This document shows, in pieces, positions 24,096 through 62,432 of a stretch of DNA of 64,000 nucleotides. Below the pieces are notes generated by a model. It saw only the letters and a list, made by a program, of their open reading frames with translations. It had not been told where the DNA came from and ran no database searches. This DNA is from Lysobacter solisilvae (lineage in GTDB: Bacteria; Pseudomonadota; Gammaproteobacteria; Xanthomonadales; Xanthomonadaceae), in the NCBI RefSeq assembly GCF_016613535.2, contig NZ_CP071518.1, positions 2,480,001 to 2,544,000 of the forward strand, given 5' to 3'. Every line of letters begins with the position of its first letter. Within the stretch, counting starts at the first letter, position 1. A program made the translations under genes and the position numbers.

Positions 24096-25493
24096 CTACA
24101 GCACCTCGGATGCGAAGTCCGCCAACCGCGAACGCTCGCCACGGCGCAGCGTGATGTGCGCGCTGTGGTTCCATCCCTTGAAACGGTCCACGGCGTAGGT
24201 CAGGCCCGACGTCGTCTCGGTGAGATAGGGCGTATCGATCTGCTCGACGTTGCCCAGGCAGACGATCTTGGTGCCCGGACCGGCACGCGTGACCAGCGTC
24301 TTCATCTGCTTGGGCGTGAGGTTCTGCGCCTCGTCCAGGATCAGCCAGCGACTGAGGAACGTGCGGCCGCGCATGAAGTTCAGCGAGCGGATCTTGATGC
24401 GCGAGGCGAGCAGGTCGTTGGTGGCCGCGCGTCCCCAGCTGCCGCCTTCCGGATTGTGCGTGAGCACTTCCAGGTTGTCGGTCAGCGCGCCCATCCACGG
24501 CGTCATCTTTTCCTCTTCGGTGCCGGGAAGGAAACCGATGTCCTCGCCCACGCTGACCGTGGCGCGCGTCATGATGATCTCGCGGTAGCGCTGCTGGTCC
24601 ATCGTCTGCGCCAGGCCGGCCGCCAGGGCGAGCAGCGTCTTGCCGGTGCCTGCGGTACCCAGCAGGGTGACGAAGTCGATCTCGGGATCCATCAGCGCAT
24701 TGAGGGCGAAGTTCTGCTCACGGTTGCGCGCGGTGATGCCCCATACCGCGTGTTGGTTGTGGCGGTAGTCGTCGACGATCTGCAGGATCACCCGGTCGTC
24801 GTCCAGCCGCGCGACCTTCATCTCGGCCTCTTCGTCGCCCGGCAGGTACAGGAACTGGTTGGGGTACCACTCGTCTTCCTCGTTGCGCCGGATCTCGTAG
24901 AAGGTGCGGCCCTTCTCGGTCCATGAACGCAGGTCCTTGCCGTAGCGCTGCCAGAAGTTCTCGGGCAGGGCGGTCGAGCCGGTATAGAGCAGGCTGAAAT
25001 CGTCCAGCGCACGGTCGTTCTCGTAGTCCTCCGACTCTATGCCGGCGATCGAGGCCTTGATGCGCAGGTTGATGTCCTTGGACACGAACACCACCGGCAC
25101 GCCGGGCTCGGCCTCCTTCAGCGCGAGGATCGAGCCCAGGATGTGGTTGTCCGGGATGACCGCGCCGAACCGCTTGCCGGAATCGAAGTCGCCGGTCTGG
25201 AAACGCAGGCGGCCGATGCTCTGCGCGCCGCGCAGCTGGATGCCCTGGGGGCGGTTGAGCGCGATGCCTTCGTTGATGGCACGCGTGCCCTGGTTCTCGA
25301 TCAGCTCGTTGAGGAACCGGCTGACCTGGCGTGCGTTGCGGCTGGCTTCCGTGTTGCCTTTCTTGCCGTTGTCCAGCTCCTCGATCACCTGCATGGGCAG
25401 GTAGACATCGTGCTCCTCGAACTTGAACAGCGCGGTGGGATCGTGCATCAGCACGTTGGTGTCGAGGACATAGATGCGCTTGCTTCGGGTCAT
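24096..25493 (-). CDS. PIN-PhoH fusion protein (PhoH2/YlaK type)
   Basis: A 465-residue protein. An N-terminal PIN nuclease domain (residues ~5-150) has the acidic residues expected for catalysis in IYVLDTNVLMHD, QVIEELDNGKKG and FVSKDINLRIKA. It is fused to a C-terminal PhoH ATPase (residues ~255-465) with Walker A LLGTAGTGKTLLALAAGL and Walker B FLSRWLILDEAQNLTPKQMKTL. PIN-PhoH proteins have been described as RNA helicases with ribonuclease activity, and occur in toxin-antitoxin-like settings in mycobacteria; no antitoxin partner is visible here. The start at 25493 follows from the PIN N-terminus. Confidence 0.92.
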   Translation of the reverse strand: MTRSKRIYVLDTNVLMHDPTALFKFEEHDVYLPMQVIEELDNGKKGNTEASRNARQVSRFLNELIENQGTRAINEGIALNRPQGIQLRGAQSIGRLRFQTGDFDSGKRFGAVIPDNHILGSILALKEAEPGVPVVFVSKDINLRIKASIAGIESEDYENDRALDDFSLLYTGSTALPENFWQRYGKDLRSWTEKGRTFYEIRRNEEDEWYPNQFLYLPGDEEAEMKVARLDDDRVILQIVDDYRHNQHAVWGITARNREQNFALNALMDPEIDFVTLLGTAGTGKTLLALAAGLAQTMDQQRYREIIMTRATVSVGEDIGFLPGTEEEKMTPWMGALTDNLEVLTHNPEGGSWGRAATNDLLASRIKIRSLNFMRGRTFLSRWLILDEAQNLTPKQMKTLVTRAGPGTKIVCLGNVEQIDTPYLTETTSGLTYAVDRFKGWNHSAHITLRRGERSRLADFASEVL

Positions 25494-26062
25494 CGTGTGT
25501 TCCTGGGACGGAAGGGTGCAGCGGACGGGCACGGACAGGCCACCACGGTCCCGCAGGGCGGGGTGGCGAAGTGGCTGGAGTACGGGGTGGTCACTGGGTC
25601 GAGGCGGCCTTGAGCGCGTCGAGGACGGCCCTGGGCATGGCCGGTCACCTTCACCGGCCGCCATGACTCGCGGATGACGCCTGCGGGATCGATCAGGAAA
25701 GTGCTGCGTTCCACGCCGATGTAGTCCCGGCCGTAGAGCTTTTTCGGCTTGATCACGCCGAAGGCGTTGCAAAGTGTTTCGTCGGTGTCACTGACCAGCT
25801 CGAACCTGAAGCCCTGCTTGGCGCAGAAGTTCTGGTGTGAACGCAGGGAATCGCGGGATACGCCCAGCACGGTGGCATCGAGCTTGCGGAACTTGGGCAG
25901 CAGCGCGTTGAAGTCCAGGCCCTCGGTGGTGCAGCCGGGCGTGCTGTCCTTGGGATAGAAGTACAGGACCAGCCATTTCCCGCGCAGGTCGGCAAGACGC
26001 GTCGTGGAACCGCTGGAGAGCGTGAGGGGCAGGTCGGGAACCTTGTCGCCAACGTCTAGCAT
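25490..26062 (-). CDS. bcp: Thiol peroxidase Bcp (peroxiredoxin), frameshifted C-terminus
   Basis: A peroxiredoxin reducing alkyl and hydrogen peroxides. VGDKVPDLPLTLSSGSTTRL starts the fold; the peroxidatic Cys is in YPKDSTPGCTTEGLDF, and VLGVSRDSLRSHQNFCAKQ matches the family. As written, the frame runs to 25490 and overlaps the phoH start, giving 190 residues. A one-base insertion in the ccc run at 25629-25631 explains this: without it the protein ends at 25591 as AQAVLDALKAASTQ, 156 residues, the normal Bcp length. It lies 48 nt after the gcvR-like gene on the same strand. Confidence 0.88.
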   Translation of the reverse strand: MLDVGDKVPDLPLTLSSGSTTRLADLRGKWLVLYFYPKDSTPGCTTEGLDFNALLPKFRKLDATVLGVSRDSLRSHQNFCAKQGFRFELVSDTDETLCNAFGVIKPKKLYGRDYIGVERSTFLIDPAGVIRESWRPVKVTGHAQGRPRRAQGRLDPVTTPYSSHFATPPCGTVVACPCPSAAPFRPRNTR

Positions 26063-26110
26063 CGGGGTCTCGTCTGGGGGCGCCGTCCTGGCGCCCGATG
26101 GCCGCATCGA

Positions 26111-26671
26111 TCAGAACTTCATCGGGTCCATGATCGCGTCGAGGTTAAGGTGATCACAGAACTCCAGGAAGTCATCGCGCAGTGCAGCAATATGCATGCT
26201 GGCCGGGACGCCGATGGTGACCTGGGCGGAGAACATATCCGCGCCGGTCTGCATCGCGCGGTAGCGCGAGCAGTGCAGGCTCTCGATGGTGATGCCCTGG
26301 CGGTCGAAGAAGTCGGCCAGCTGGAACAGGATGCCCGGCTTGTCGGCCGCCACGACCTCGACGACATACGGCAGCAGGTTCGACTGCACCTGCTTGGGCC
26401 CCGTGCGGTACCAGTTGAGCTTGAGGCCTTCCTCGCGCTCGAGCCGGCTCAGCATCGATTCCAGCTTGGCCACCGCATCCCACGGACCCACGGCAAGGGC
26501 GGTCACGGAGACATCACGTCCCACCGTCGACAGACGGGCGTCCACGAGGTTGCAGCCACTGTCCGTGATGCGACGCGTGACCGACAGCAGCGGGGATTCC
26601 GGATGTGTCGTGTACGCGTTGATCAGGAGGTGGTTTTCGTTCGGCGACGGCCGGGGGGAAATATCGGTCAA
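26111..26671 (-). CDS. gcvR: Glycine cleavage system transcriptional repressor GcvR-like, two ACT domains
   Basis: About 186 residues with tandem ACT domains: first [23 protein letters not shown], second [22 protein letters not shown]. In E. coli GcvR blocks GcvA when glycine is low. The residues [24 protein letters not shown] and the ending [19 protein letters not shown] are as I recall from xanthomonad homologues. No ATG lies near the conserved start; TTG at 26671 (giving a protein beginning [14 protein letters not shown]) is my choice. The frame continues upstream to 26779 without conserved sequence. It is divergent from dapA and heads bcp-phoH-thiD. Confidence 0.85.
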
Positions 26672-26892
26672 GGCGGCGCCTGCGGATGGGAGAACGGGTT
26701 GGGAACCGTGAACATGAACCTGTGCCGTCGCAGGGACGGCGCCGGGTTCAGCATACTTGCCCGCGGTTTCACGCCGCAAGTAACATCTGGATATTCGCGT
26801 TACCGGCCCGATGGCCGCACAATCCCTGCGGCGTGACGACGGATTCGCCTCCGACGCACCTGTCCAGTTCCACTTCCCAGAGCCTTACGACC

Positions 26893-27798
26893 TTGCGACT
26901 TTCCGGCAGCATCACCGCGCTGGCCACCCCCTTCAATGCGGCGGGCGAACTCGACCTGGATGCCTGGCAGCGGCTGCTTGCGCAGCAGCTCGATGGCGGC
27001 ACCCAGGCCGTGGTGGTCGCCGGATCGACCGGCGAGGCGGCCGCATTGCTGGACGCCGAGTTCGACCTGCTGCTGCGCACGGCCGTCGAGTTCATCGCCG
27101 GCCGGATTCCCGTCCTCGCCGGAACCGGCCTGTCGAACACCGCCAAGACGGTCGAGCAGACCCGGCGCGCCGCCGTGCTGGGCGCGGACGCCGCGCTGAT
27201 CGTCACGCCGCCTTACGTGCGCCCCACCCAGGCGGGCCTGGTCGCTCACTATCGCGCGATCGCCGACGATGGCGCGCTCCCGATCGTGCTCTACAACGTG
27301 CCCGGCCGCACCGGCAGCGACCTGCTGCCGGAGACCGTGGCCGAACTCTGCGGCCACCCGCGCATCGTCGCCATCAAGGAAGCCTGCAGCGAGCCCGAAC
27401 GCATGGCCGCGTTGCTGGCGCTCAAGGCCGACGACTTCGCCGTGATCAGCGGCGACGATCCGACTGCATGTCGCGCGCTGCTGGCCGGCGCCGACGGTGT
27501 GATAGGTGTCGCGTCCAACGTGCTGCCCGCCGCCATGCGCTACCTGTGCGACCTGTCGCGCGCCGGCGATGCCGATGCCGCGACGGCCTGGGATGCGCGC
27601 CTGCAGGCGGTTTTCACTTTCCTCGGCGTCGAATCCAATCCGATCCCCATCAAGGCGCTGTTGTCGCTGCAGGGAATCGGCCATGGGCTTCGGCTGCCGC
27701 TGTTACCCCTGTCGGCGGGACATGCCGACCTCGCGCATTCGATGGCCTCGGCCATCCGCGAACTCGAGACCGCGAGCCGGGAACTGCTCGCGGCCTAA
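26893..27798 (+). CDS. dapA: 4-hydroxy-tetrahydrodipicolinate synthase
   Basis: About 301 residues; condenses pyruvate and aspartate semialdehyde in lysine/diaminopimelate synthesis. [18 protein letters not shown] starts the TIM barrel; [17 protein letters not shown], the tyrosine loop [14 protein letters not shown], and the Schiff-base lysine in [15 protein letters not shown] are present. The start is ambiguous: TTG at 26893 gives the typical family N-terminus, GTG at 26833 would add 20 unconserved residues. It is followed 24 nt later by a bamC-like lipoprotein gene, the standard dapA-bamC pairing. Confidence 0.93.
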
Positions 27799-27822
27799 GT
27801 CACGAATCTCTGGAGGAATTCC

Positions 27823-28332
27823 ATGCGTTCCAATGTTTCCCTGCGCCGCACTGCGGGCATCGTTCTGATCGTGGTCGCCGTGAGTGCGGTATCGGGCTGC
27901 AGCTGGTTCCACAAGCCGAACAAGCTGTATGCCGGGGACGCGCAGAGCCGTCCGCTGGAAGTGCCGCCCGATCTCGACCTGCCGCGCACCGACGCCGCTG
28001 TGCAGGTGCCGGGAGCCGCGGTGACGGCTTCGGGTTCGCCGACCACCGCGCCGACGCCGGCACTGGGCTTCCAGGTCACCGGTAGTCGGGACGAGGCCTT
28101 CAACCGGGTCGGCGATGCGCTGGCGCAGGTCGAAGGCCTGACGATTGCCAGCCGCGCCCAGTTGCTGGGGGCCTACGACGTCAGCTACATGGGCAGCAAC
28201 TTCCTGGTGCGCGTCAGTGCAGTGGAAGGCGGCGCCTACGTGTCGGCCGTGGACCCGCGCGGCACCGCCGTGACGGGCGAGGGCCCGACGAAGCTGATCG
28301 GCGCGCTGAAGACGGCGCTGTCGGGCCAATAA
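27823..28332 (+). CDS. bamC: Outer-membrane assembly lipoprotein, BamC/NlpB-like
   Basis: A 169-residue predicted lipoprotein: hydrophobic signal, lipobox VSGC with lipidated Cys near residue 26, then WFHKPNKLYAGDAQSRPLEVPPDLDLPRT, the unstructured BamC-type N-terminus containing PLEVPPDL. It is much shorter than E. coli BamC (about 344), keeping only one helix-grip domain (DEAFNRVGDALAQVEGLTIASR). GGAGGA precedes the ATG at good spacing. Context after dapA supports the call. Confidence 0.82.
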   Translation: MRSNVSLRRTAGIVLIVVAVSAVSGCSWFHKPNKLYAGDAQSRPLEVPPDLDLPRTDAAVQVPGAAVTASGSPTTAPTPALGFQVTGSRDEAFNRVGDALAQVEGLTIASRAQLLGAYDVSYMGSNFLVRVSAVEGGAYVSAVDPRGTAVTGEGPTKLIGALKTALSGQ

Positions 28333-28386
28333 GCTGGCCGGCCAAGAGCGCGGGGCCAGGGCGATACCCTGGCATCCGCGGGCATG

Positions 28387-28414
28387 AAAAAGGGCGCCGA
28401 TGGCGCCCTTTTTT
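28387..28414. terminator. Bidirectional terminator between bamC and fdxA
   Basis: Seven-base arms gggcgcc/ggcgccc with a gat loop, flanked by AAAAA on one side and TTTTTT on the other, so it can serve both convergent genes. Confidence 0.88.
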
Positions 28415-28429
28415 CGTTTCGCGCGTGCC

Positions 28430-28753
28430 TCAGCGCTCGAGCAGGTCGCGCTTGCCCGGCTTGCCTTCCCATTCCTTCGCATCGGGCAGGGCGTCCTTGC
28501 GGGTGGTGAGCACGGGCCAGCTCCTGGACAGTTCGGCATTCAGCGCGACAAACGCTTCCTGCCCGGCCGGCACGTCGTCCTCGGGGTAGATCGCGTTCAC
28601 CGGGCACTCGGGCTCGCACAAGGTGCAGTCGATGCATTCGTCCGGGTCGATCACCAGGAAATTGGGACCTTCGTGAAAGCAGTCGACCGGGCACACCTCC
28701 ACGCAGTCGGTGTACTTGCACTTGATGCAGTTCTCGGTGACGACGAAGGGCAT
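28430..28753 (-). CDS. fdxA: Seven-iron ferredoxin FdxA
   Basis: A 107-residue ferredoxin with one 3Fe-4S and one 4Fe-4S cluster. The first Cys set is [20 protein letters not shown] and the second [18 protein letters not shown]. The segment [17 protein letters not shown] and the tail of about 40 residues ([15 protein letters not shown]) match FdxA of Azotobacter and Pseudomonas type. It stands alone, convergent to bamC. The redox partner is unknown. Confidence 0.95.
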
Positions 28754-28831
28754 GGCGGGGTCCGTGTGTCAGGCGGGGTCAAGTGTAGCCACTCGACGCG
28801 GCATCGGGGATGGGGCCGCGGTGGAGGGAGC

Positions 28832-28859
28832 AACAAAAAACCCGGCGCGGGCCGGGTTT
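28832..28859 (-). terminator. Intrinsic terminator of tRNA-Glu
   Basis: Read on the minus strand, arms aaacccggc/gccgggttt close on a 4-nt loop and are followed by a T-run (the AAAAAA at 28835-28840 on the plus strand), 38 nt after the tRNA. Confidence 0.8.
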
Positions 28860-28897
28860 CGTGTCTGGGGCCCTATCTCAAAATCAGGCCCCGCTTA

Positions 28898-28973
28898 TGG
28901 CGCTCCCTACGGGATTCGAACCCGTGTTTTAGCCTTGAGAGGGCCACGTCCTGGGCCTCTAGACGAAGGGAGC
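28898..28973 (-). tRNA. tRNA-Glu (CTC anticodon)
   Basis: A 76-nt cloverleaf on the minus strand with acceptor GCTCCCT/AGGGAGC, discriminator G and encoded CCA. The loop CTCTCAA gives CTC, reading GAG. D-arm and T-arm sequences resemble E. coli tRNA-Glu. Confidence 0.94.
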
Positions 28974-29154
28974 AGAAAACGTCGCCTCCATGGCGGTCTG
29001 CTTCGTCGGTACTGTCGAAGCATCGCCTGCGAAAGCCGATCCTTCCGGTCATCCGGGGCCTGGTAGCCGAAGGCCACCATGATCCGGGTGCCCGGCGCCC
29101 AGGTAGCGACCTGAACGCGGCCTGCTAGTATAAGCAGCGCCATCGCCTCCGGCA

Positions 29155-30528
29155 ATGGCGTCTCAACCGAATCGACAAGGACCGTGGCGAACTCGCCCGA
29201 TGCCCGCTATCCAAGCCAATCCCATACTCCGGCTGATCCCCCGCGAGGAGCACAACGTCTCCCGCAAGGACATCAGTCCCAATGCCCTGCGCGTCCTCTA
29301 CAGGCTCCGCGACGCCGGTTTCGGCGCGTTCCTGGTGGGCGGTGCTGTCCGTGACCTGCTGGTCGGGGGGCATCCCAAGGACTTCGACGTGGCCACCGAC
29401 GCCACGCCGGAGCAGGTCAAGCAGCTGTTCCGGAACTGCCGCCTGATCGGTCGCCGCTTCCGGCTGGCCCATGTGGTGTTCGGCCGCGAGATCATCGAGG
29501 TCGCCACGTTCCGCGCCAACGCCGACGATGGCAGCGGTGATCGCGAAACCCACGAAGGCGGGCGGGTGCTGCGCGACAACGTCTTCGGCTCGGTCGAGGA
29601 CGATGCGGTACGCCGCGACTTCACGGCCAACGCGCTGTACTACGCGATCGAGGATTTCTCGGTGCGCGACTACGTCGGCGGCTTCGAGGACGTCCGCGAC
29701 CGGCTGATGCGGCTGATCGGCGACCCGGAAACGCGCTACCGCGAAGACCCGGTGCGCATGCTGCGCGCCGTGCGCCTGGCGGCGAAGCTGGATTTCCAGA
29801 TCGAGTCGGCCACCGCCGAACCCATCCCGCGGCTGGCCCACCTGCTGTCCGAGGCGGCACCCGCGCGGCTGTTCGAGGAATGCCTGAAGATGTTCCTGAC
29901 CGGGCACGCGGTCGCCAGCTTCGAGGGCCTGGAACGCCACGGCCTGCTTGCGGCGCTCTTTCCCGAAACGGCGGCGGCGCTCGCCTCCAACCGCAGCGGC
30001 GCCCTGCGCCGCATGCTGGTCGCCGGTCTGAGCGGTACCGATGCGCGCGTCGAGCGCGACGAGCCCGTGTCACCGGCCTTCCTGTTCGCCGTGCTGTTGT
30101 GGCCGGCGTATTGCCGATCCCTGGCGCAGCTCCAGCACGGCGGCATGCATGTCACCGAAGCCGAGCGCCGCGCCGCCGATCGCGTCACCGTGCACCAGTT
30201 GAACACGGTGGCGCTGCCACGCCGGTTCTCACTGCCGATGCAGGAAATCTGGCTGCTCCAGTCGCGCTTCTCCCTGCGGCAGCGCAAGCGCGTGTTCCGC
30301 CTGCTCTCGCACCCGCGCTTCCGGGCCGCGTTCGATTTCCTCAGCGTGCGCCTGGCCGCTTCCAACGAGCACGCCGACGACGTCGAGTTCTGGCGTGAAG
30401 CCCAGCAGCAGCCGGGCGACGTGCTGGCCGCACAGCTCGACGGCCATTCCGCGCACGACGAATCAGGCGAGGCCCCGCGCCGCCGCCGTCGCCGCCGTCG
30501 GAGCGGCTCGGCCGCAGCCGGCGAGTGA
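29155..30528 (+). CDS. pcnB: Poly(A) polymerase I
   Basis: About 457 residues; adds poly(A) tails that target RNA for decay. The nucleotidyltransferase core reads GAFLVGGAVRDLLVGG then PKDFDVATDATPEQV with the catalytic Asp pair; FRNCRLIGRRFRLAHV and the RRDFTANALYY motif fit PcnB rather than CCA-adding enzyme, as does the long Arg-rich tail ([16 protein letters not shown]). A TATAAG -10-like box is at 29129-29134. The start may instead be ATG at 29200. It heads pcnB-folK-panB-panC-panD-pgi, with a 4-nt overlap with folK. Confidence 0.94.
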   Translation: MASQPNRQGPWRTRPMPAIQANPILRLIPREEHNVSRKDISPNALRVLYRLRDAGFGAFLVGGAVRDLLVGGHPKDFDVATDATPEQVKQLFRNCRLIGRRFRLAHVVFGREIIEVATFRANADDGSGDRETHEGGRVLRDNVFGSVEDDAVRRDFTANALYYAIEDFSVRDYVGGFEDVRDRLMRLIGDPETRYREDPVRMLRAVRLAAKLDFQIESATAEPIPRLAHLLSEAAPARLFEECLKMFLTGHAVASFEGLERHGLLAALFPETAAALASNRSGALRRMLVAGLSGTDARVERDEPVSPAFLFAVLLWPAYCRSLAQLQHGGMHVTEAERRAADRVTVHQLNTVALPRRFSLPMQEIWLLQSRFSLRQRKRVFRLLSHPRFRAAFDFLSVRLAASNEHADDVEFWREAQQQPGDVLAAQLDGHSAHDESGEAPRRRRRRRRSGSAAAGE

Positions 30529-37936: not shown

Positions 37937-39625
37937 ATGCGCATCCAGGGGGCCACCGTTCAGAAGCTGATGATGGGCCTGGCCCTGTTGTCGGCGCTGG
38001 CGTGGAATCTGGCCCAGGCCAGTGAAATCAAGGGGTTGCAGATCACCGCGGGCGCCACCGGCACCCGTGCGGAAATCGCCCTCGACCAGCCCGGAGCCTT
38101 CAAGGTCATCCGCCTGTCCAACCCCGAGCGTCTCGTCCTGGATTTCACGGGCAGCCGCATGGCGCGCAATGTCGCGATGCCGGCCGGCACCGGGGTGGTC
38201 CGCGCCATCCGCAGCGGACAGCCGGAAGCCGGCATCGCCCGCCTCGTCTTCGACCTGAGCCAGCCTGTCGCCGCCATCGGTCCGCGGCTGGAGCAGGGCG
38301 CCGGTGGCCCCCGCCTGGTGCTGGAATGGCCCGGCGAATTCGCCTCACCCAACGCTGCCCCCGCAGTCACGACCACCACCACGGCGCCCCGGCCGGTCGA
38401 TGCCGCGGCGACGCCCTCGAAGTACCTGCCGTCCCCCGCGCAGATCGCGCGCTCGGAGGCCGAAACCTCCGCCGCGTCGGCCGAAGCGACCTCGCGCCTG
38501 ATCTCCCAGTTGGCCCAGCGGGGAACGGCAACGCCTACCTCTGCGTCCGGCACCCCGGCGACCACCACCGACCCGCGCGCCACGGTGCCGCCGTCGGTCC
38601 GCACGGTGCCCGTCGCGGCCGGCTCGATTTCCGCGGCGCCTGACCGCTCGACGGTCTACGTGCCGCCGGCGCGGGCCGCTTCCGTCGCCCCGGCGGGCGT
38701 CGGCTCGTCCATCCCGACACCCGCGAGGGCCGGATCCTCGACGGCGGGATCCTCGACGGCGGGATCCTCAACGGCGGGATCCTCGACGGCGGCCTCGATG
38801 ACCGCGCCCACCACCGTCGCCAACGCACCGACCCGGCCGCTCGACGATCCGATGCGCAACCGGACCATGCGGCCGCTGGTGATTGCCATCGACCCCGGGC
38901 ATGGCGGGCAGGATCCGGGCGCGATCGGCCAGTCGGGCAAGCGCGAGAAGGACGTCACCCTGGCCATCGCCCGCGAACTGGCGCGCCAGATCAACGCGAC
39001 GCCCGGCCTGAAGGCCTACCTGACCCGCGATACCGACATGTTCATCCCGCTCAACCGACGCGCTCAGCTGGCGCGCCAGGCGAGGGCGGACATGTTTGTG
39101 TCCATCCATGCCGACGCCGCGGAAAACCGCAGCGCGAACGGGTCGTCCGTCTACGTCCTGTCGCTCAAGGGCGCGTCGTCGCAACGCGCGCGCTGGCTGG
39201 CCGACAAGGAAAACGCCTCCGACCTGGTCGGCGGCGTGCGCCTGGAACCCAGCAGCACGCTGACCTCGGTCCTGCTGGACCTGACCCAGAGCGGGCAGAT
39301 GAAGGCTTCCGAGGACGCCGCCTCGAGCGTGCTCAGCGGACTGGGGCAGCTCGGCCGCAACCACAAGCCGCACGTGGAGCGCGCCAACTTCGCCGTGCTG
39401 CGCACCTCCGACATGCCGGCGATGCTGGTGGAGACGGCATTCATCTCCAATCCGGACGAGGAACGCCGCCTGACCGATCCGGCCTCGCAGCGGCAGATCG
39501 CGCGCGCGGTACTGGAAGGCGTCAACACCTACTTCCTGCGGCAGCCGCCGCCGGGAACGCTGTACGCCGCCCGCGCGACGGCCGATTCCTCGCCCCGCCC
39601 GGGCGCGGGCGCCGGCCGACCCTGA
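37937..39625 (+). CDS. N-acetylmuramoyl-L-alanine amidase (AmiB/AmiC type) with AMIN domain
   Basis: A 562-residue periplasmic cell-division amidase. Signal peptide to about residue 32 (ALAWNLAQAS), an AMIN septal-targeting domain (EIKGLQITAGATGTRAEIAL), a 150-residue Ala/Ser/Thr/Pro-rich linker, then a zinc-dependent Amidase_3 domain with IAIDPGHGGQDPGAIG, FVSIHADAAENRS and MPAMLVETAFISN. The linker contains four GSSTA units encoded by a 15-nt repeat. No LysM domain is seen. ATG at 37937 was chosen because it precedes the signal peptide; the longer frame from 37853 would hide it. mutL follows. Confidence 0.93.
   Translation: MRIQGATVQKLMMGLALLSALAWNLAQASEIKGLQITAGATGTRAEIALDQPGAFKVIRLSNPERLVLDFTGSRMARNVAMPAGTGVVRAIRSGQPEAGIARLVFDLSQPVAAIGPRLEQGAGGPRLVLEWPGEFASPNAAPAVTTTTTAPRPVDAAATPSKYLPSPAQIARSEAETSAASAEATSRLISQLAQRGTATPTSASGTPATTTDPRATVPPSVRTVPVAAGSISAAPDRSTVYVPPARAASVAPAGVGSSIPTPARAGSSTAGSSTAGSSTAGSSTAASMTAPTTVANAPTRPLDDPMRNRTMRPLVIAIDPGHGGQDPGAIGQSGKREKDVTLAIARELARQINATPGLKAYLTRDTDMFIPLNRRAQLARQARADMFVSIHADAAENRSANGSSVYVLSLKGASSQRARWLADKENASDLVGGVRLEPSSTLTSVLLDLTQSGQMKASEDAASSVLSGLGQLGRNHKPHVERANFAVLRTSDMPAMLVETAFISNPDEERRLTDPASQRQIARAVLEGVNTYFLRQPPPGTLYAARATADSSPRPGAGAGRP
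38732..38791 (+). repeat. 15-nt tandem repeat in the amidase linker
   Basis: Four near-perfect units of ggatcctcgacggcg (one with a c-to-a type change), in frame, encoding GSSTA repeats around residues 266-285. Copy number should be able to vary without breaking the frame. Confidence 0.9.
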
Positions 39626-39672: not shown

Positions 39673-41530
39673 GTGACCGGTGCCGGTATCATTCCGGCGG
39701 TGACGATCCGCCAGCTTCCCGACACCCTCATCAACCAGATCGCTGCCGGCGAAGTCGTCGAACGACCTGCGTCCGTGGTCAAGGAACTGGTCGAAAACGC
39801 CCTCGACGCCGGCGCCCTGCGCGTGGACATCGACCTGGAGGAAGGCGGCGTCCGCCTGATCCGGATCCGCGACGATGGCCGCGGCATCGCCCCCGAGCAA
39901 CTGTCCCTGGCCGTCTCCCGGCACGCCACGAGCAAGATCGCTTCGCTCGACGACCTGGAAGGCGTCGCCACCCTGGGTTTCCGCGGCGAAGCGTTGCCGT
40001 CCATTGCCTCGGTGAGCCGCTTCGCGCTGACCTCGCGCCACGCCGACGCCGCCCACGGCGCGAGCCTGGAGATCGAGGGCGGCCGCCAGGGCGAACTGGT
40101 GCCCAAGCCGCACCCGCGCGGCACCACGGTGGAAGTGCGCGACCTGTTCTTCAACGTGCCCGCGCGGCGCAAGTTCCTCAAGGCCGAGCGCACCGAACTG
40201 GGCCACATCGAGGACTGGCTCCGCCAGCTGGCGCTGGCCCGCCCGGAAGTCGAACTGCGCGTCACCCACAACGGCAAGCCCTCCCGCCGCTGGAAGGGCG
40301 AGGGCGACCTGCTCTCGCAGGTGCGGCTCAACGAGGCGCTGGGCGAGGAATTCGCGCAGAACGCCCTGCGGGTGGACCACGCCGCCGCGTCGCTGCGATT
40401 GCATGGGTGGATCGCGCGGCCGGTGTACAACCGGGCCAGCGCCGACCAGCAGTTCCTGTACGTCAATGGGCGGGCGATCCGCGATCGCAGCGTCGCCCAC
40501 GCGGTGAAGCAGGCGTATGCGGACGTGCTGTTCCATGGCCGCCAGCCGGCATACGTCCTGTTCCCTGGAGCTGGACCCGCGCCGCGTCGACGTCAACGTG
40601 CATCCGGCCAAGCACGAGGTGCGCTTCCGCGATGCCCGGCTGATCCACGACTTCGTCTACCGCACCCTGCATGAAGCGCTGGCGGACACGCGCGCCGGCT
40701 TGAGCCCGGGCGCGGACCAGCCCCATCCGCCGATGCCGGCAGGTAGCGATTACCGCTGGAACGCGCCGCAATCGCCGCTGGGACTGCAGGTCGAACAGAC
40801 CCGCGCCGGCTACGCCGCGCTGTACGGCGAGCCTGCCATGCCGTCCCCATACGCGGCCGCCGCGGCGGCGCAGCCAGGCCAGGATGCCTTCGCGCCCGCG
40901 CGCCTGCCCGACAGCCAGGAAGCGACGCTGCCCCCGCTCGGGTACGCCATCGCGCAGCTGCACGGCGTCTACATCCTGGCCGAGAGCGCCGAAGGCCTGG
41001 TGGTCATCGACATGCACGCCGCGCACGAGCGCATCGGTTACGAGAGAAGCTCAAGTGCGCGCACGACGGCGAAGGCCTGCGCACGCAGCCGCTGCTGGTG
41101 CCGATGAACGTCGCGGTGTCCGAACGCGAGGCCGACGCGGCCGAACGCGAAGCCGACACGCTGGAGTCACTCGGTTTCGAGATCACCCGCAGCGGTCCGC
41201 AGTCGCTCACGCTGCGCAGCGTGCCGGCCCTGTTGGCCCACGGCGACGTCGAGGCCCTGCTGCGCGACGTGCTGGCCGACCTGCGCGAACACGCGGATAC
41301 CCAGGGCGCCGGCGCCAACCGGGTAATGGCCGCGCGCGACGAACTGCTGGCGACGATGGCCTGCCACGGGGCCGTCAGAGCGAACCGACGTCTCACTTTG
41401 CCCGAAATGAACGCCCTGCTGCGGGAAATGGAAGTGACCGAGCGCTCGGGGCAGTGCAATCATGGCCGTCCCCACGTGGGCGCGGTTCAGCCTGCCCGAG
41501 ATCGATCGCTGGTTCCTGCGAGGACGTTGA
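39673..41530 (+). pseudogene. mutL: DNA mismatch repair protein MutL, three frame disruptions
   Basis: The GHKL ATPase half is intact: [46 protein letters not shown]. The reading frame is then broken three times by insertions: an extra C in ttccctgg (40563-40565), a duplicated AG in gagagaag (41043-41049), and an extra C in gtccccac (41470-41473). Removing these four bases gives 617 residues, close to E. coli MutL (615), ending [20 protein letters not shown]. The C-terminal half keeps endonuclease-type motifs ([30 protein letters not shown]) expected in bacteria without MutH. High conservation across all frames suggests sequencing error rather than decay. Confidence 0.9.
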
Positions 41531-41532: not shown

Positions 41533-42520
41533 ATGAGCGTTGCCCTGCGTTGCGCGTCCCAGGCCGCGAAGCTGCTGCTGTCGATGGGTGGGCTGTGCAT
41601 GCTGTCGGTGGGCATGCTGTCCGGTTGCGCCAAGCCCGAGCCGGACGCGGTGCGGCAGGCGCGCGAGGCCAAGGCGCAGGCGTTCACCGCGGGCCAGGCC
41701 ACCTGGCGCGAAACCCGCAAGGCCGACCTGCTCAAGCCCGATGGCTGGACGACGCTGATGGGCCTGCACTGGGTGGATGCCGGTGCGCACTACGTGGGCA
41801 GCGACGGCGACAACGGAATCCGGCTCGCCGTCGGTCCGCCGCACATGGGCATGCTCGAGCGCAAGGGCGACCGCATCCGTTTCGTGCCCGAAAAGGGCGC
41901 CGAACTCACGCTTGATGGCGAGCCGCTCAAGGGCAGCACGCCGCTGCGCAGCGATGCCGACCCGGCCGGGTCCAGTCGATTGGGATTCGACCAGGGCAAG
42001 GGGGGAAGTCAACATCATCAAGCGCGGCGACCGCTACGCCCTGCGCGTGCGCCACGCCGACGCGGCCACACGGACCGGATTCAAGGGCCTGGAATACTGG
42101 CCGGGCGGACAGGACTGGATCATCGAAGGCCGTTTCGTGCCCAACACCGCGGGCAAGGTCATCGCCGTGGGCAACATCATCGGCACGGTGGAAGATGTCC
42201 CCAATCCCGGCGCGATCGAGTTCGAGCGTGGTGGCCAGACCTATCGGCTCGAAGCGCTCGACGGTGGCGACGGCAGCCTGTTCTTCGTCTTCCACGACCG
42301 CACCAGCGGCAAGGGCAGCTATCCTGCGGGACGCTTCCTGGACGCCGCCGCTCCCGATGCCAAGGGCCACGTCGTGCTGGACTTCAACAAGGCCTACAAC
42401 CCCCCGTGCGCATTCACCGCGTACGCCACCTGTCCGTTGCCCCCGCCAGAAAACCGCCTGAACCTGGAAGTGGTCGCGGGCGAGAAGAATTACTCGTTCG
42501 AGGAACGAAAGCACCCATGA
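41533..42520 (+). pseudogene. DUF1684 lipoprotein, frameshifted
   Basis: A predicted lipoprotein (lipobox LSGC near residue 36) of the DUF1684 family: [47 protein letters not shown] and [26 protein letters not shown] are visible, but in two frames. One extra G in the six-G run at 42000-42005 shifts the frame between FDQGKG and [15 protein letters not shown]. The repaired product is 328 residues. It starts 2 nt after the mutL stop and overlaps the next gene by four bases (ATGA). DUF1684 function is not known to me. Confidence 0.85.
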
Positions 42521-53004: not shown

Positions 53005-54370
53005 ATGAAGCATCCGTTCCGCACCGCGGCCCTGAGCGCCGCCGTGATCGCCTCGCTCGGTTTCTCCGCCGCCGCCCTGGCCGCTGGCCGCCCCGACCCT
53101 GGTGTTGTCGGGCCTGAAGGCCGGCAAGCCCCATGAAGCCAGCGAGCTGCTGGTCAAGTTCCGCGACGGCTCCACCGCCGCCCAGCAACTGGCCGTCCGC
53201 CAGGGCCTGGGCGCGCAGAAGATCCAGACCGTGCGCGGTGGCAAGGGCGAACTGGCGCTGCTGCGCCTGCCCGCCGGCAAGAGCCTGGCCGCCAGCGTGA
53301 GCGCCCTGGCGTCCAACCCGGCCGTCGAATACGCCGAGCCGAACTGGATCTACCAGCACAACGCCACTTCCAACGACACCTACTTCACCAACGGCGCGCT
53401 GTGGGGCATGTACGGCGACGCCTCCTCGCCGGCCAACCAGTACGGCTCGCAGGCGTCGGAAGCCTGGGCCGCCGGCCACACCGACTGCGGCAACGTCATC
53501 GTCGGCGTGATCGACGAGGGCATCTACTACAACCACGAAGACCTCGCCGCCAACATCTGGAGCAATCCCTACGATCCGGCCGACGGCGTCGACAACGACG
53601 GCAACGGCAAGGTCGACGACGTCCGCGGCTGGGACTTCGACGGCGGCAGCAACAACATCAACTCCGGCGGCGCCAACGACGACCACGGCACGCATGTGTC
53701 GGGCACCATCGCCGGCGTGGGCGGCAACGGCAAGGGCGTGGCGGGCGTGTGCTGGAGCGGCGTCAAGCTGATCAGCGCCAGGTTCCTGGGCCGTCGCGGC
53801 GGCACCACCGCCAATGCGATCGCGGCGGTGGACTACATCACCGACCTGAAGACCCGCCATGGCCTGAACATCGTCGCCACCAACAACTCGTGGGGCGGTG
53901 GCGGCTTCTCGCAGGGCCTGCAGGACGCGATCGGCCGCGCGAACACGGCCAACATCCTGTTCATCGCCGCCGCCGGCAACGATGCGTACAACAACGACGC
54001 CACGGCCAGCTATCCCTCGAACTACCCGAACGCGAACGTGATCGCGGTCGCCTCGACGACCAGCACCGGCGGCCTGTCGAGCTTCTCGCAGTGGGGCGCG
54101 ACCACGGTCGACATCGGTGCGCCGGGTTCGGGCATCTATTCGTCCGTTCCCAAGAGCGTCAAGGGTCAGCTCACCTCGGCCTACGCCAGCTACAGCGGCA
54201 CCTCGATGGCCACCCCGCACGTGACCGGCGCCGCGGCGCTGTACAAGTCGTCGCATCCGGCCGCCACGGCCGCGGACATCAAGGCCGCGATCCTGGGCAC
54301 CGCGGTGCCGACGCCGTCGCTCAACGGCAAGGTGCTCACCGGTGGCCGCCTGAACGCCAGCGGCTTCTGA
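53005..54370 (+). pseudogene. Secreted subtilisin-like serine protease (S8), frameshifted in the signal/propeptide
   Basis: MKHPFRTAALSAAVIASLGF starts a Sec signal peptide, but an extra C in the cccc run at 53091-53094 shifts the frame right after ALAAGRP. Restored, the protein has 454 residues: a propeptide (LLVKFRDGSTAAQQLAVRQG ... AVEYAEPNWIY), then the S8 catalytic domain with Asp in IVGVIDEGIYYNHEDL, His in DDHGTHVSGTIAG, oxyanion Asn in FIAAAGNDAYNN, and Ser in YSGTSMATPHVTGAA. DVDNDGNGKVDD-like acid residues suggest a calcium loop. An extracellular protease of this kind fits a predatory or saprophytic lifestyle. The frame open from 53102 alone would lack the signal peptide. Confidence 0.9.
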
Positions 54371-55780: not shown

Positions 55781-55799
55781 CCCTGCCGCGGCACCGAAA

Positions 55800-55819: not shown

Positions 55820-55826
55820 GCGGTGC

Positions 55827-56123: not shown

Positions 56124-56182
56124 GGGGGACTCCTGTGTGTTGTGGGCCTGCGCGGCAAGCGCGCAGTGGGTTCGGGTGCGGA

Positions 56183-56839: not shown

Positions 56840-56937
56840 CGGCGGGAGTGTAGGGCGGCCGGCCGCCGCGCGGCACCGCCGCGGCGACCGCGTGGCCGGG
56901 ATCGATTCATCTGCCGGGCGGCGCCTGCCAGCGGCGA

Positions 56938-57904
56938 TCAGCGGAACACGATCACGTACATCAGCACGACATTGCACGCCAGCAGCACCAGGCCCGTCAT
57001 CCACTGCGCGCGGATCACGCCGTAGGGATCCTTCAGTTCCAGCAGCGCGGCGGGCACCAGGTTGAAGTTGGCCGCCATCGGCGTCATCAGTGTGCCGCAG
57101 TATCCCGACAGCATGCCGATGGCGGCCAGCGAGGCCGCGTCGGCGCCGTGCAGCGTCACCAGCAGCGGCAGGGCGACGCCGGCGGTCATCACCGGAAACG
57201 CGGCGAAGGCGTTGCCCATGATGATGGTGAACACGGCCATGCCCACGGCGTAGGCGACGACCACCACGAACGCGTTGTCGACGGGGATGACGTCGCGCAC
57301 GACGCCGGCCACGGCTTCGCCCACGCCGCCCGCCTCGAACACGCTGCCCAGCGTGGCCAGCAGCGGCAGCAGCGCGGCCCAGCCGATGGCGTCGATCAGC
57401 CGGCGGGACTGCTCCACGGCGCTCCAAGGGCGTCTGCCGCGTGAGCCGGCACGCCGCGGCCAGCGCGACCACGCAGGCCACCGCCAATGCGATCACGGTG
57501 GTCTGCTTCGCATCGAGCAGGCGCAGGCCCGCCACGGAGATCTCGGCCACCGAGAATCCGAACGCCTTGACCGCCAGCACCAGCGTCACGATCGGGATCA
57601 GCAGCGCCGGACCGAACAGGCGGTTGCCCAGGCGTTCGGCTTCGGCCTGTTTTTCCTGCGGATCGGATTCTTCATAGCGCCCCATGCGCAGCCCGCCCAG
57701 TCCCGCGAGCAGGGCCAGCACCACCACCAGCGCGCCCACCGCCGCCGCGGGCATGTGCTCCGCGCCGAACAGCAGCAGCGCCAGCAGCCCCCAGAACAGC
57801 CCGGTGGTATGCCGGCGCGGATTGCCGCGGTCGCGCGCGCCGCGCCAGGCGATCGACAGGAAGTACGCGCCCAGCAGCCAGTAGACGTGGGTGAGGGTGA
57901 TCAT
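56938..57904 (-). pseudogene. DUF979 membrane permease subunit, frameshifted
   Basis: An integral membrane protein. The first part, from ATG 57904, reads [20 protein letters not shown] with further helices to [11 protein letters not shown]; the second continues in another frame as [20 protein letters not shown] to [12 protein letters not shown] one-base insertion near 57418-57422 (cggcgctcc) separates them; restored length is 321 residues, about nine helices. DUF979 always pairs with DUF969. The ATG overlaps the DUF969 stop (ATGA). Inferred role: uptake of 5-oxoproline or related compound. Confidence 0.88.
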
Positions 57905-58656
57905 GGCGCGGGCTTTGACCGGTCGCGCATCGTGCCGTCGCGCATCGCCTCGTCGCGCATCGTCCAGTCACGCAGCAGGCGCCGCTCGAAGCGGCGGATG
58001 CGCGCGGCGTGGATGACGAAGGCGCACAACGCCGTGGGGATGCCCCACACCGCGATCTGGTAAGGCTCCAAGGTGATGCCGTGGTCGGCGTAGAAACTCT
58101 GCATGAGCAGCACCGCGCCGAAGGCGATGAAGATGTCCTCGCCGAAGAACAGGCCGACGTTGTCGGTGGCGGCGGACATGGCGCGGATGCGCTCGCGCTG
58201 GCTGTCGTCCACGTGCGAGCCGTGCGCCTGCGCCGCGACTTCCGCCGCACCTTCGGCCATCGGCGCCAGCAGCGGGCGCACCGCCTGCGGATGCCCGCCC
58301 AGGCCGGTCAGGCCCATGGCCGAGGCCAGTTGGCGCATGAACAGGTAGGCGATCAGCAACCGGCCCATCGTCGCGCCGCGCAGGCGGGCGATCCAGGCCT
58401 GCGCGTGCTCCTTCAGGCCGTGGCGTTCGAGCAGGCCGATCACCGGCAAGGTCAGCAGGAACACCAGCAGGTAGCGCTTCTCGGTGAAGGCGGTGCCGAT
58501 CACCTCCAGCAGTTCCACCGGCGACATCCGCGCCGCCAGCCCGGTCACGCCGGCGGCGATCACCACCACCAGCGCCGGGTTCATGCGCAGCACGAAGCCG
58601 GCGACGACGGCCGCCACGCCCAGCAGGGGCCAGTAGTTCATGGGGTCGGCGCTCAC
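57901..58656 (-). CDS. DUF969 membrane permease subunit
   Basis: A 251-residue membrane protein with about five helices: [60 protein letters not shown] and later [43 protein letters not shown] is the conserved core. GTG at 58656 was chosen for its AAGG site; ATG at 58641 is the alternative. The C-terminus ends in [13 protein letters not shown], made by a 15-nt tandem repeat. Located between pxpA and DUF979. Confidence 0.88.
57922..57966 (-). repeat. 15-nt tandem repeat at the DUF969 3' end
   Basis: Three units of gtcgcgcatcg plus four variable bases (plus-strand reading), in frame, coding MRDxx repeats just before the stop. Confidence 0.8.
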
Positions 58657-58684
58657 GGGTGGGCCTTCATGGGTGGGCTTTCAT
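58657..58684 (-). repeat. 14-nt direct repeat before DUF969
   Basis: Two units gggtgggccttcat / gggtgggctttcat directly upstream of the DUF969 GTG; on the coding strand each carries an ATGAARG that could act as a ribosome site. Confidence 0.7.
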
Positions 58685-58735
58685 GGTCGGGACCGTCGGG
58701 CTGGAAATGCATGTCACGCGCGTGCAGGCGGCCCT

Positions 58736-59486
58736 TCATGCAGGCGCGCCGAATGCGCGGATCGACACACCGTCGCGCTCGAGCGCGGCGCGGATCGCGC
58801 GGGCGAAAGTCGCGGCGTCGGGGCGGTCGCCGTGCAGGCATAGCGTGTCGGCGCGCACGGCCACTTCCTCGCCGTTGCGCGCGGTGACGCGGCCGCGGGC
58901 CACCAGCGCACGCACCTGGGCCAGGCTGTCATCGAGGGTCTCGATGACCGCGCCCGGCTCGCCGCGCGGCGTCAGGCGTCCATCGGGTTCGTAGCGGCGT
59001 TCGGCGAACACCTCGTGCGCCACCCGCAGGCCGGCGCGTTCGCCGGCTTCGGTCAGCCGGGAGCCCGACAGCCCGAACAGGACCAGCGCCGGATCGGCCT
59101 GGCGCACGGCCAGGGCAATCGCGTCGGCGATGTCCGCATCGCGTGCGGCCAGGTTGTAGAGCGCGCCATGCGGCTTGACGTGCGCCAGGCGGACGTCCTT
59201 GGTCGGCGGCCAGCGCCGCGAGCCGCTCGATCTGGGCAGCCACCAGGGCGGTGACCGCCGCCGGCTCGATCGCCAGTTCGCGGCGGCCGAAGTGCTCGCG
59301 GTCATCGAACCCCGGGTGCGCGCCCGCCGCCACGCCGTGCGCGCGGCACAGGCGCAGCGTGGCGCGCATGCTCGTGTCGTCGCCGGCATGCGCACCGCAG
59401 GCGATCGACGCCGAGGTGATCAGGGGGATGATCGCGGCGTCGTCGCCGCAGCCTTCGCCCAGGTCACAGTTGAAATCGATGCGCAC
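58736..59486 (-). pseudogene. pxpA: 5-oxoprolinase subunit A (LamB/YcsF), frameshifted
   Basis: The family start [21 protein letters not shown] is followed by [20 protein letters not shown] and [19 protein letters not shown]. After ALAAD the frame shifts because of one extra base at 59201-59202 (ccttggtcgg); the rest continues [21 protein letters not shown] to LCLHGDRPDAATFARAIRAAL. The restored protein has 249 residues, normal for PxpA. With PxpBC it hydrolyses 5-oxoproline to glutamate at the cost of ATP. Confidence 0.92.
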
Positions 59487-59517
59487 GGTGCGTGCCGGGG
59501 CAGGGAAGCCGTGGGCG

Positions 59518-59682
59518 CTACTTGCGGCTGAACAACAGGCCCAGCCCCACGATCACCAGGATCGCCGGCCACCACGTGCTGATCAGGCGGCCCAGGCTGA
59601 GATTGGTGAAACCCAGGTTGTTCAACAGGAACAGCGTGCCGACCACGATCAGCACCAGTGCCGCGACCACATTGCCTTTCAT
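59518..59682 (-). CDS. Small two-helix membrane protein (DUF5668/LiaF-like)
   Basis: A 54-residue protein with two transmembrane segments: [20 protein letters not shown] and [19 protein letters not shown], ending FSRK. This pattern (LLNNLG ... WPxxLIxxGL) is that of DUF5668 / LiaI-LiaF-like toast-rack-associated proteins. The ATG overlaps the pxpC stop (ATGA) and the gene sits 31 nt before pxpA. Its link to oxoproline metabolism is unclear. Confidence 0.8.
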
Positions 59683-60656
59683 TCCCCGTATCCCCTTTGC
59701 AGTTTGAAATCGATCATCAAGGTGATTCTGGCCAGCCGGGCGCGCGCGGCGCAAGCCAGCTGCGTCGCGGTTCGCGCATCGCAGGCGGAAAAATGCACGG
59801 GCTGGCCGGGCCGCAGCTGGGCCAGGCGCTGCAGGTCGACGGCGATCACGTGTCCGAGGCGAGGGTAACCGCCTACGGTCTGCGCGTCGGCCAGCAGGAC
59901 GATGGGGCGGCCATCGGGCGGCAGCTGCACGGTGCCCGGCGCGACCGGCGCGGAAATCTGCTCGTGCGTGTCCAGCGACAGCGCCTCGCCGTCCAGGCGC
60001 AGGCCTTGCCGGTCGCTGCGTGCACTGGCGCGCCACGGCATGCGCGCGAACGCGTCGGCGCCGGGCAGGTGCGCGGGCACATAGCGGATCGGCGCCGCGC
60101 GCCCATGGGGCTGGCGATCGTGCGCGAGCGGATCCACCCACCAGGCGGGAAAGCGTGGCTCCGGACCGGGGTCGGGCGCAGCAGACACGTGCAGCCTGTC
60201 GCCCGCGCGCAATGCGCGCCCCGCGAGGCCGCCGAAGCCGCCGCGCAGGTCGGTGCTGCGGCTGCCGAGCACGGGCGGCACGTCCAGTCCGCCGCCGATC
60301 GCCAGCCAGGCGCGCGTGCCGTCGCAGGCCGCGCCCAGGCTGAGTTCGCCCGCGGGCAGGGACACGGGCCTGCCGCCGGGGATGTGGGCGGCCACGCCCG
60401 TGGAGGACGTGAACTTCATCGGCAGCCAGGCGCCGCACAATGCGATGCGCGTGGGCACGTCGAAGCGCAGCGTCGGACCCTGCAGCGTCATTTCCAGCAC
60501 GGCCGCGTCCGGGTCGTTGCCCACCAGCCGATTGGCGAGCGCGGCCGCATCCGGGTCGAGCGCGCCGGCGCGCGCGATGCCCAGGTGGCGCCAGCCGTGG
60601 CGCCCGCGGTCCTGCACCGTGGTCAGCAGGCCCGGTTGCAGGACGTGCAGGCTCAT
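59679..60656 (-). CDS. pxpC: 5-oxoprolinase subunit C (biotin-dependent carboxylase-like)
   Basis: A 325-residue protein of the KipA/urea amidolyase-like family. LHVLQPGLLTTVQDRGRHGW is the diagnostic start; ARAGALDPDAAALANRLVGN, GAWLPMKFTSSTGV and GGYPRLGHVIAVDLQRLAQL follow. It overlaps pxpB by four bases and the small membrane gene by four bases. It acts as the partner of PxpB in the ATP-dependent phosphorylation step. Confidence 0.95.
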   Translation of the reverse strand: MSLHVLQPGLLTTVQDRGRHGWRHLGIARAGALDPDAAALANRLVGNDPDAAVLEMTLQGPTLRFDVPTRIALCGAWLPMKFTSSTGVAAHIPGGRPVSLPAGELSLGAACDGTRAWLAIGGGLDVPPVLGSRSTDLRGGFGGLAGRALRAGDRLHVSAAPDPGPEPRFPAWWVDPLAHDRQPHGRAAPIRYVPAHLPGADAFARMPWRASARSDRQGLRLDGEALSLDTHEQISAPVAPGTVQLPPDGRPIVLLADAQTVGGYPRLGHVIAVDLQRLAQLRPGQPVHFSACDARTATQLACAARARLARITLMIDFKLQRGYGE

Positions 60657-61339
60657 GCGGCATCCATCGGCAGCGGCACGAAGCGCACGCGGTCGCCCGA
60701 CGCGAGCAGGGACGGCGCCTGGCGCGTGGCGTCGAACAGCACGCTGGGCGTACGCCCGATCAGCCGCCAGCCGCCCGGACTCTCGCGCGGGTAGATGCCC
60801 GTCTGCGCACCGCCGATGCCGACGCTGCCCGCCGGCACGCGCGTGCGCGGCGTGGCCAGGCGCGGCAGCGCCAGGGCCGGATCCAGCCCGAGCAGGTAGG
60901 GGAATCCCGGCGCGAAGCCGATCATCGCCACCGTGTACTCGCGGTCGGCATGGCGTCGCACGAACTCTTCGGGCGTCAGGCCCAGTTCGGCCGCGCTGGT
61001 GGCCAGGTCGGGGCCGTCGTCGCCGCCGTAGGCCACGGGGATTTCGACCAGTCGCGAACCGTCGCCGGCGGCGTGCTGCGGCCCCTGCGAATGCGCCGCG
61101 CCCTGCGCCTGCTCCAGCAGCCAGCGCGCGGCGGCGTCGCCGTCGATGGCGGCCGGATCGAAGAACAGCGCCACGCTCGCGTAGGCGGGCACCAGGTCGC
61201 GCACCCAGTGCGGTCGCCGTGCCTGCAGGTGCGCGCACAGGGCGTGCACGCGCGCGTTGAGGGCGGGGTCGATGCGGTCGCCCAGGTGCAGCAGCCAGGC
61301 GTCGTCGGCTAGCGCTTCCAGCGCCGGCGCGTCGCTCAC
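60653..61339 (-). CDS. pxpB: 5-oxoprolinase subunit B (allophanate hydrolase subunit 1-like)
   Basis: A 228-residue KipI-type protein: LLHLGDRIDPALNARVHAL, VPAYASVALFFDPAAID, IPVAYGGDDGPDLATSAAEL, and the conserved FAPGFPYLLGLDPALALPRLATPRTRVPAG stretch, with GWRLIGRTPSVLFD near the end. The GTG start at 61339 overlaps the HIT gene stop (GTGA). It functions with PxpC and PxpA. Confidence 0.95.
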   Translation of the reverse strand: MSDAPALEALADDAWLLHLGDRIDPALNARVHALCAHLQARRPHWVRDLVPAYASVALFFDPAAIDGDAAARWLLEQAQGAAHSQGPQHAAGDGSRLVEIPVAYGGDDGPDLATSAAELGLTPEEFVRRHADREYTVAMIGFAPGFPYLLGLDPALALPRLATPRTRVPAGSVGIGGAQTGIYPRESPGGWRLIGRTPSVLFDATRQAPSLLASGDRVRFVPLPMDAA

Positions 61340-61766
61340 GCCAGTGCCGCGCGCAGGCGCTCGATGCGTCCGACCAGCGCCTCGGTCGAGTAGGGCTGCG
61401 CGGAGGCCATGCCCCACACCGGCCGCGGCCAGGCGATGTCGTCGGTGAAGCGGGCGATGACGTGCACACGTGCAGCTGCGGCACGACATTGCCCAGGGCG
61501 GCCACGTTGAGTTTGTGCGGCTTGAACACCGCCTGCAGCATGCGCCCGGCCTGGCTGATCTCGGCCGAAAGCTGCGCCTGCTGCTCGGTGTCCAGGTCGG
61601 TCCATTCCACCGCGCCTTCCACGCGCGGCACGAGGATCAGCCAGGGATGGTTGGCGTCGTCCATCAGTTGCAGGTCGCTCAGCGCGAAGTGCGCGACCGG
61701 ATGCGTGTCTTCGGCCAGTTGCGGATGCAGGTGCCAGCCGACCGGAGCCTGGGGGTGCTTGCTCAT
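61336..61766 (-). pseudogene. HIT-family protein, frameshifted
   Basis: A histidine-triad nucleotide-binding protein of about 142 residues. FALSDLQLMDDANHPWLILVPR and LNVAALGNVVPQLHV are in one frame; HVIARFTDDIAWPRPVWGM in another. The break falls inside the histidine triad (QLHVHVIAR) and is a 2-base insertion of ac at 61471-61475 (gtgcacacgtgc). Restoring it gives a complete protein. ATG 61766 overlaps the dienelactone hydrolase stop. Related HIT proteins hydrolyse nucleoside phosphoramidates; no specific link to the operon is evident. Confidence 0.88.
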
Positions 61767-62432
61767 CTCAGGTTCTCCGCGAGGAAGTCGATCGTGCGCT
61801 GCCACGCGAGCGAGGCGCTGGGCGCGTGGTAGTGCGCATTGTCCACGTCGCGGTTGAAGGCGTGGCCGGCCTCCTCGTAGACATGGATGCGGGCCGTCGG
61901 CTGCCTCGCCCGGTGCAGTTCGATGGCTTCCGCGGGAATGCTGTCGTCGCGCGCACCGAAATGGAACATCAGCGGGGCGCGCGCCGGTTCGTCGAGGAAG
62001 GGCACGCTGCGCGCGCCGTACCAGCTCACCGAGGGCAGGCCCAGGCGCGTATTGCCCCAGGAAGGCCACGCTCCCGCCCCAGCAGAAGCCCACCACGCCC
62101 GTGCGCAGGCCCTCGGCCTGCAGTTCGTCGGCGGCGGCGCCCACGATGTCCACGGCGCGGTCGAACCCCAGGGCATTGCGCAGGTCGACGCCGCGCTGGG
62201 TGTCCTGCGGCGTGTAGGCCAGTTCCACCCCGGATTCCACCGGGTCGTAGAGGGCCGGTGCCAGCGCCACGAACCCGGCCGCCGCGAAGCGCTCGGTCAC
62301 GCGGCGGATGTGCTCGTTGACGCCGAAGATTTCCTGCAGGACCACGACAGCCTGGCGGGCCGGCACGGTCGGGTCGGCGCGCCAGGCCCGCACGGGCCCG
62401 TGGGGCGTATTCAGGTCGATCCATCGGCTCAT
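61763..62432 (-). pseudogene. Dienelactone hydrolase family protein, frameshifted
   Basis: An alpha/beta hydrolase of 222 residues once repaired. RQAVVVLQEIFGVNEHIRRV supplies the conserved Glu, VVGFCWGGSVAFL the Cys nucleophile; after an extra G in the run at 62055-62058 the frame continues NTRLGLPSVSWYGARSV, HFGARDDSIPAEAI (Asp), and EEAGHAFNRDVDNAHYH (His). The catalytic Cys-Asp-His triad is therefore complete. It heads the minus-strand operon that leads to pxpBCA. Physiological substrate unknown. Confidence 0.9.

Follow-up and report, generated by a model that had tools for sequence, protein, structure and literature searches.

Ten frame breaks in eight conserved genes of Lysobacter solisilvae as probable long-read consensus errors concentrated at CCWGG

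What is to be made of a bacterial genome in which mutL is broken three times, and in which seven other conserved genes lose their frame within the same few tens of kilobases? The question is raised by a window of 64,000 nucleotides (positions 2480001-2544000) of the Lysobacter solisilvae contig NZ_CP071518.1, from a single-contig genome of 3,933,292 bases with a completeness of 99.84%. A sequence-only reading had listed ten insertions in eight genes here and had ascribed them to residual long-read error, with a mutator lineage as the biological alternative. We argue that the inserted bases are very probably absent from the cell's DNA and arose as consensus errors when long reads, most likely nanopore reads, were assembled, and that methylation of CCWGG (CCAGG or CCTGG) would account for many of them.

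Frame breaks in the window and beyond

All ten insertions were located, as had been claimed, by comparing the open reading frames of relatives with the window by tblastn and by aligning the DNA around each site with relatives (n=15, being 4 genomes and 11 named loci, some perhaps of one species). Eight sites carry one extra base and two carry two (the second in mutL and that in the HIT gene), and alignment to close relatives, which had been proposed as a check, finds the extra bases missing from every relative whose alignment spans them. Shared ancestral frameshifts are ruled out, as the relatives are without the insertions. In the list below, an expanded CCWGG is one with a one- or two-base duplication.

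25623..25635, minus strand, break at 25629: bcp (AhpC/TSA family), +1, expanded CCWGG; insertion against G001, G002 and G017 (DNA); Pfam match AhpC-TSA
40560..40569, plus strand, break at 40563: mutL, first break, +1, expanded CCWGG; DNA_mis_repair split at profile position 79
41042..41049, plus strand, break at 41042-41046: mutL, second break, +2 (GA repeat), not CCWGG; MutL_C split
41468..41474, plus strand, break at 41469: mutL, third break, +1 in a C run, not CCWGG
42000..42010, plus strand, break at about 42004: DUF1684 gene, +1 in a G run, not CCWGG; tblastn and DNA alignments; DUF1684 matched in the downstream piece
53095..53102, plus strand, break at 53098: subtilase gene, near its start, +1, expanded CCWGG; Peptidase_S8 in the downstream piece
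57423..57432, minus strand, break at about 57428: DUF979 gene, +1, expanded CCWGG; DUF979 split 2-145 / 145-307
59189..59203, minus strand, break at about 59197: pxpA (LamB_YcsF), +1, expanded CCWGG; tblastn with G001, G002 and G017; LamB_YcsF split 1-100 / 99-239
61463..61470, minus strand, break at 61467: HIT gene, +2 (CA repeat), not CCWGG; G001, G002, G017, L023, L058 and G012
62050..62060, minus strand, break at 62055: dienelactone hydrolase gene, +1, expanded CCWGG; G001, G002, G017, L023 and L058; DLH split 2-114 / 124-215

At each of the three mutL sites all 15 aligned relatives are without the insertion; the closest named records found with MutL come from Lysobacter, Vulcaniibacterium, Luteimonas and a Lysobacterales bin, and DNA identity over the mutL region is 76% with G001 and 74% with G002, both relatives of the same genus. 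The subtilase break is supported by one relative, G001, and the DUF979 break at the DNA level by G017 alone, because the G001 and G002 alignments stop short of the site. Pfam matches flank the first two mutL breaks and those in DUF979, pxpA and dienelactone hydrolase on both sides; in bcp, DUF1684, subtilase and HIT they stand on one side only, which for HIT is the upstream piece, the downstream one having no Pfam match.

Beyond the window, breaks were called with a three-periodic coding model trained on genes of relatives, under a strict setting in which the old frame stays open for at least 55 nucleotides beyond the switch and both arms span at least 100. This model recovers 7 of the 10 window sites. 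It stays silent over 80 kb from each of G001, G002, G017 and G012, which supplied its training genes, over the 219 kb of the 11 named loci, and over 240 kb of G001, a span that takes in the earlier 80 kb. Across 29 other stretches of the genome itself (580 kb, of which 10 kb were counted twice) it makes 24 calls, spread over 14 stretches, which rules out decay confined to the window region. At the rate outside, the Poisson chance of at least seven calls per 64 kb is 0.02; the window is therefore somewhat rich in breaks but not unique. Three loose tblastn joins (net +20, -10 and -5) were left out of the count, and one further strict call, at 1879920, arises only with stretches joined. The call L115:14445 (465 kb region) was kept in the count, though it may mark a gene boundary, its upstream transglycosylase domain being nearly complete.

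Half of these outside calls (12/24) fall between two pieces that hit one and the same protein: an ABC_tran protein, HrpB, an RND pump, 6-phosphogluconolactonase, a SurA-like isomerase, asparagine synthase, ribonuclease R, HemA, EF-Tu, SecE, a class-II DAHP synthase and a c-di-GMP phosphodiesterase. SMC accounts for two more of the 24, and a Pfam scan covered, at least partly, the pieces of 22, all but L123:6758 and L123:7104. The genome yields a single SecE match, and the dimerisation domain of HemA turns up only split in two, with one piece below cut-off. Of the two EF-Tu copies one is open over 400 residues and the other is broken; they are 99.2% identical over 1205 columns and differ by a single indel, CC-AC-AGG in copy 1 against CCAAG, which is not the motif, in copy 2.

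By frame shift, 19 of the 24 calls behave as +1 (or -2) and five as +2 (or -1). Three of the five can be assigned: comparison with G001 makes ribonuclease R +2, comparison with the sister copy does the same for EF-Tu, and 6-phosphogluconolactonase reads CC-TC-TGG. The other two (L115:14445 and L184:203) may be either, so that single-base deletions among the outside calls number at most two. Over the stretches covered, the proposed count of insertions and deletions comes out almost wholly as insertions in protein genes, with deletions present in ribosomal RNA (rRNA).

Some observations stand apart from these counts. At 6031-6044 the window holds a possible eleventh +1 insertion against G001, not CCWGG and outside the earlier list; at 38712-38796 the frame model switches for 84 nucleotides and back within one gene, uncounted since the arm is too short; and the only isolated one-nucleotide deletion against G001 lies at window position 21309, where the model sees no coding. 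Elsewhere, three close frame breaks surround an AAA/GspA-like gene at L123:6284-8990 (genome about 2056284-2058990).

The motif at the breaks and a candidate methyltransferase

All 34 sites (10 in the window and 24 elsewhere) entered the motif test, none being dropped. A CCWGG with a one- or two-base duplication lies within 4 nucleotides of 16 of the 34, against 0.87 expected (p 5e-17), and within 8 nucleotides of 17, against 1.57 expected, these being 6 of the 10 window sites and 11 of the 24 others; the expanded forms are CCCTGG, CCCAGG, CCTTGG, CCAAGG, CC-TC-TGG and CC-AC-AGG. The 31 other motif classes show no enrichment (best uncorrected p 0.065 within 4 nucleotides and 0.055 within 8), and a scan of 2075 six-mers places CCCTGG/CCAGGG at the top (8 sites, 0.71 expected), CCTTGG/CCAAGG second (5 sites, 0.43 expected) and CCCCCC third. 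This stricter form replaced a permissive test because of the high background of the latter, in which CCWGG lies within 15 nucleotides of 21/34 sites (11.3 expected, p 6e-4) and CCSGG of 21 (13.7 expected, p 0.01), and CCWGG within 3 nucleotides of 14/34 (p 1e-6). Around the sites, G+C within 50 nucleotides is 0.720 against 0.690 (p 0.001), partly because the motif is itself rich in G+C. The description of the inserted bases as duplicates in short C or G runs was thus incomplete, for six of the ten window sites are expanded CCWGG, two of them through an extra A or T.

CCWGG is the established site of both EcoRII and Dcm, and a search for a C5-methyltransferase was made after the prediction had been written down. 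The family PF00145 has one match in this genome, none in the same-genus G001 and G002, and is present in 10 of 19 genomes searched. The gene passes the cut-off of TIGR00675 and scores 420 bits against a cut-off of 710 for NF007772; beside it stand a Vsr gene (107 bits) and an EcoRII-type nuclease gene (EcoRII-C 77.5 bits, cut-off 25; EcoRII-N partial at 21.5 bits, below its cut-off of 25). They form one row:

L199:7944-11899, genome about 677944-681899: methyltransferase, Vsr, EcoRII-type nuclease and DUF7669/NucS_C nuclease gene

Its family and its neighbours predict a specificity for CCWGG, and the clustering of errors at CCWGG matches this Dcm/EcoRII-type methyltransferase encoded in the same genome; CCWGG is probably methylated in this strain. 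If, as we infer, the platform was nanopore, the enzyme at about 678 kb would methylate a cytosine in CCWGG, and a basecaller untrained on that modification would, at a small share of CCWGG sites, call a duplicated C, W or pair of bases alike in most reads, which the consensus would then retain since most reads carry it. The other half of the sites would be ordinary run-length and dinucleotide errors. Most likely, then, about half of the errors fall at probably methylated CCWGG and the rest are of the ordinary kinds.

Ribosomal RNA and the competing explanations

Two rRNA operons are present, at genome 800157-805099 (minus strand, locus L117) and 1503131-1508057 (plus strand, locus L120). Comparing one operon with the other could not tell which copy was faulty; alignment with relatives did. 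In 16S copy A there are two insertions, and copy B has a scrambled block that is short by three bases; at each of these positions the length is constant across eight sequences from seven other genomes. Nine private indels (2 insertions and 7 deletions) lie in 23S copy B, and none in copy A against the aligned relatives; nor are there any in the rRNA of G001 (one 16S and two 23S) or in the partial 23S of G002. By our reading of the alignments, one copy or the other is disrupted at 7 of 18 rRNA CCWGG positions, one of the seven being uncertain in that most relatives are without the motif there. The heavier damage in these operons, which are repeats, would fit a failure of polishing in repeats.

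The assembly thus holds no intact 16S gene, which a living cell should not be able to afford, and no other single finding argues as strongly for error. Together with the breaks in SecE, HemA, SMC and one EF-Tu copy, it supports the attribution to residual long-read error. That attribution is refined in two respects: the errors cluster at CCWGG and not simply at homopolymers, and deletions exist in rRNA. The claim that no deletion is seen holds for the protein genes of the window, but not genome-wide, the seven private deletions of 23S copy B meaning that deletions do occur in this assembly.

Would generic long-read error, from PacBio continuous long reads or plain homopolymer miscalls, serve as well with no part played by methylation? 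The second and third mutL breaks, DUF1684 and HIT are indeed plain runs or dinucleotide repeats, and CCCCCC ranks third among six-mers, yet this leaves aside the concentration at CCWGG, including the extra A or T within CCTTGG/CCAAGG, and CCSGG is not enriched in the strict test; we regard such an explanation as unlikely. Real mutation in a mutL-deficient mutator lineage would account for three breaks in mutL itself, and insertions in runs fit mismatch-repair loss in general. Indispensable genes are nevertheless not spared, both 16S copies and HemA being affected, and the insertions track a methylation motif and not run length, with about half of the sites not fitting CCWGG; a mutator origin is thus not supported, and we consider it very improbable. 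The duplications might also be real scars, left where the cell's own EcoRII-type nuclease cut its chromosome and error-prone repair followed, a restriction system in this way leaving indels in the genome that hosts it. The nuclease gene does adjoin the methyltransferase and the duplications do fall inside its expected site, but this reading demands life with no intact 16S gene and leaves the non-CCWGG half of the sites unexplained, and filling in a five-base overhang would yield five-base duplications, which counts against it as well. It strikes us as scarcely credible.

Several points weigh against assembly error at methylated CCWGG. The motif was first spotted by eye in the same sites on which it was then tested, and 17/34 sites have no expanded CCWGG within 8 nucleotides. 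The leading five-mer near the sites is CGTCC/GGACG (11 seen, 2.2 expected), perhaps a second sequence context of errors, with CCAGG third; in bulk, CCTTGG/CCAAGG is not raised, at 7.1 per 10 kb against 5.8-7.6 in four relatives. The SecE domain is entire within the downstream piece, so that this break alone need not be lethal, and some more distant relatives also carry private rRNA indels (at most 4 in 23S and 3 in 16S). Errors in protein genes here are nearly all insertions, as opposed to mostly false deletions in the available text of PMC12007338; and in that of PMC10687267, on Listeria, the motifs are GCAGC and GCTGG and the modification errors are mismatches, not indels.

Consensus error, about half of it at probably methylated CCWGG, remains very probable to us on balance, and all eight genes, mutL among them, are most likely whole in the cell. 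A genome miner would infer, probably wrongly, a strain deficient in mutL and rich in pseudogenes, and would be misled by any 16S sequence drawn from the assembly. A check of assemblies that needs no reads suggests itself: frame breaks made of base-duplicated CCWGG, together with a matching methyltransferase gene.

Comparison with known systems

As in EcoRII-type restriction-modification, genes for a C5-methyltransferase, Vsr and an EcoRII-type nuclease lie side by side here; unlike in those systems, the EcoRII-N match is partial and below cut-off, and the recognition site and activity are putative. For nanopore error, the available text of Wick et al. 2019 (PMC6591954) places about 70% of consensus errors in CCAGG/CCTGG with the then-current basecallers of Oxford Nanopore Technologies under default models, and ascribes the Dcm-motif errors to training data without Dcm methylation. 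The likeness lies in CCWGG concentrating errors, with homopolymer errors second. The differences are that the Klebsiella benchmark has a known truth, here inferred from relatives, and that the CCWGG share is smaller in our case (17/34 within 8 nucleotides); whether Dcm errors are insertions is not stated in that part of the source. The Listeria work (PMC10687267), in the part available, resembles our case in that lineage-specific modification motifs degrade the consensus and the methyltransferase system is strain-specific. Kastor (PMC12007338), to the extent of its available text, addresses gene-fragmenting errors in long-read assemblies; it differs in that false deletions outnumber insertions and the word 'methylation' is absent from that main text, and it agrees in that, among insertions, an erroneous second A follows CCCA, TCCA and ACCA, which is the form that CCAAGG takes here.

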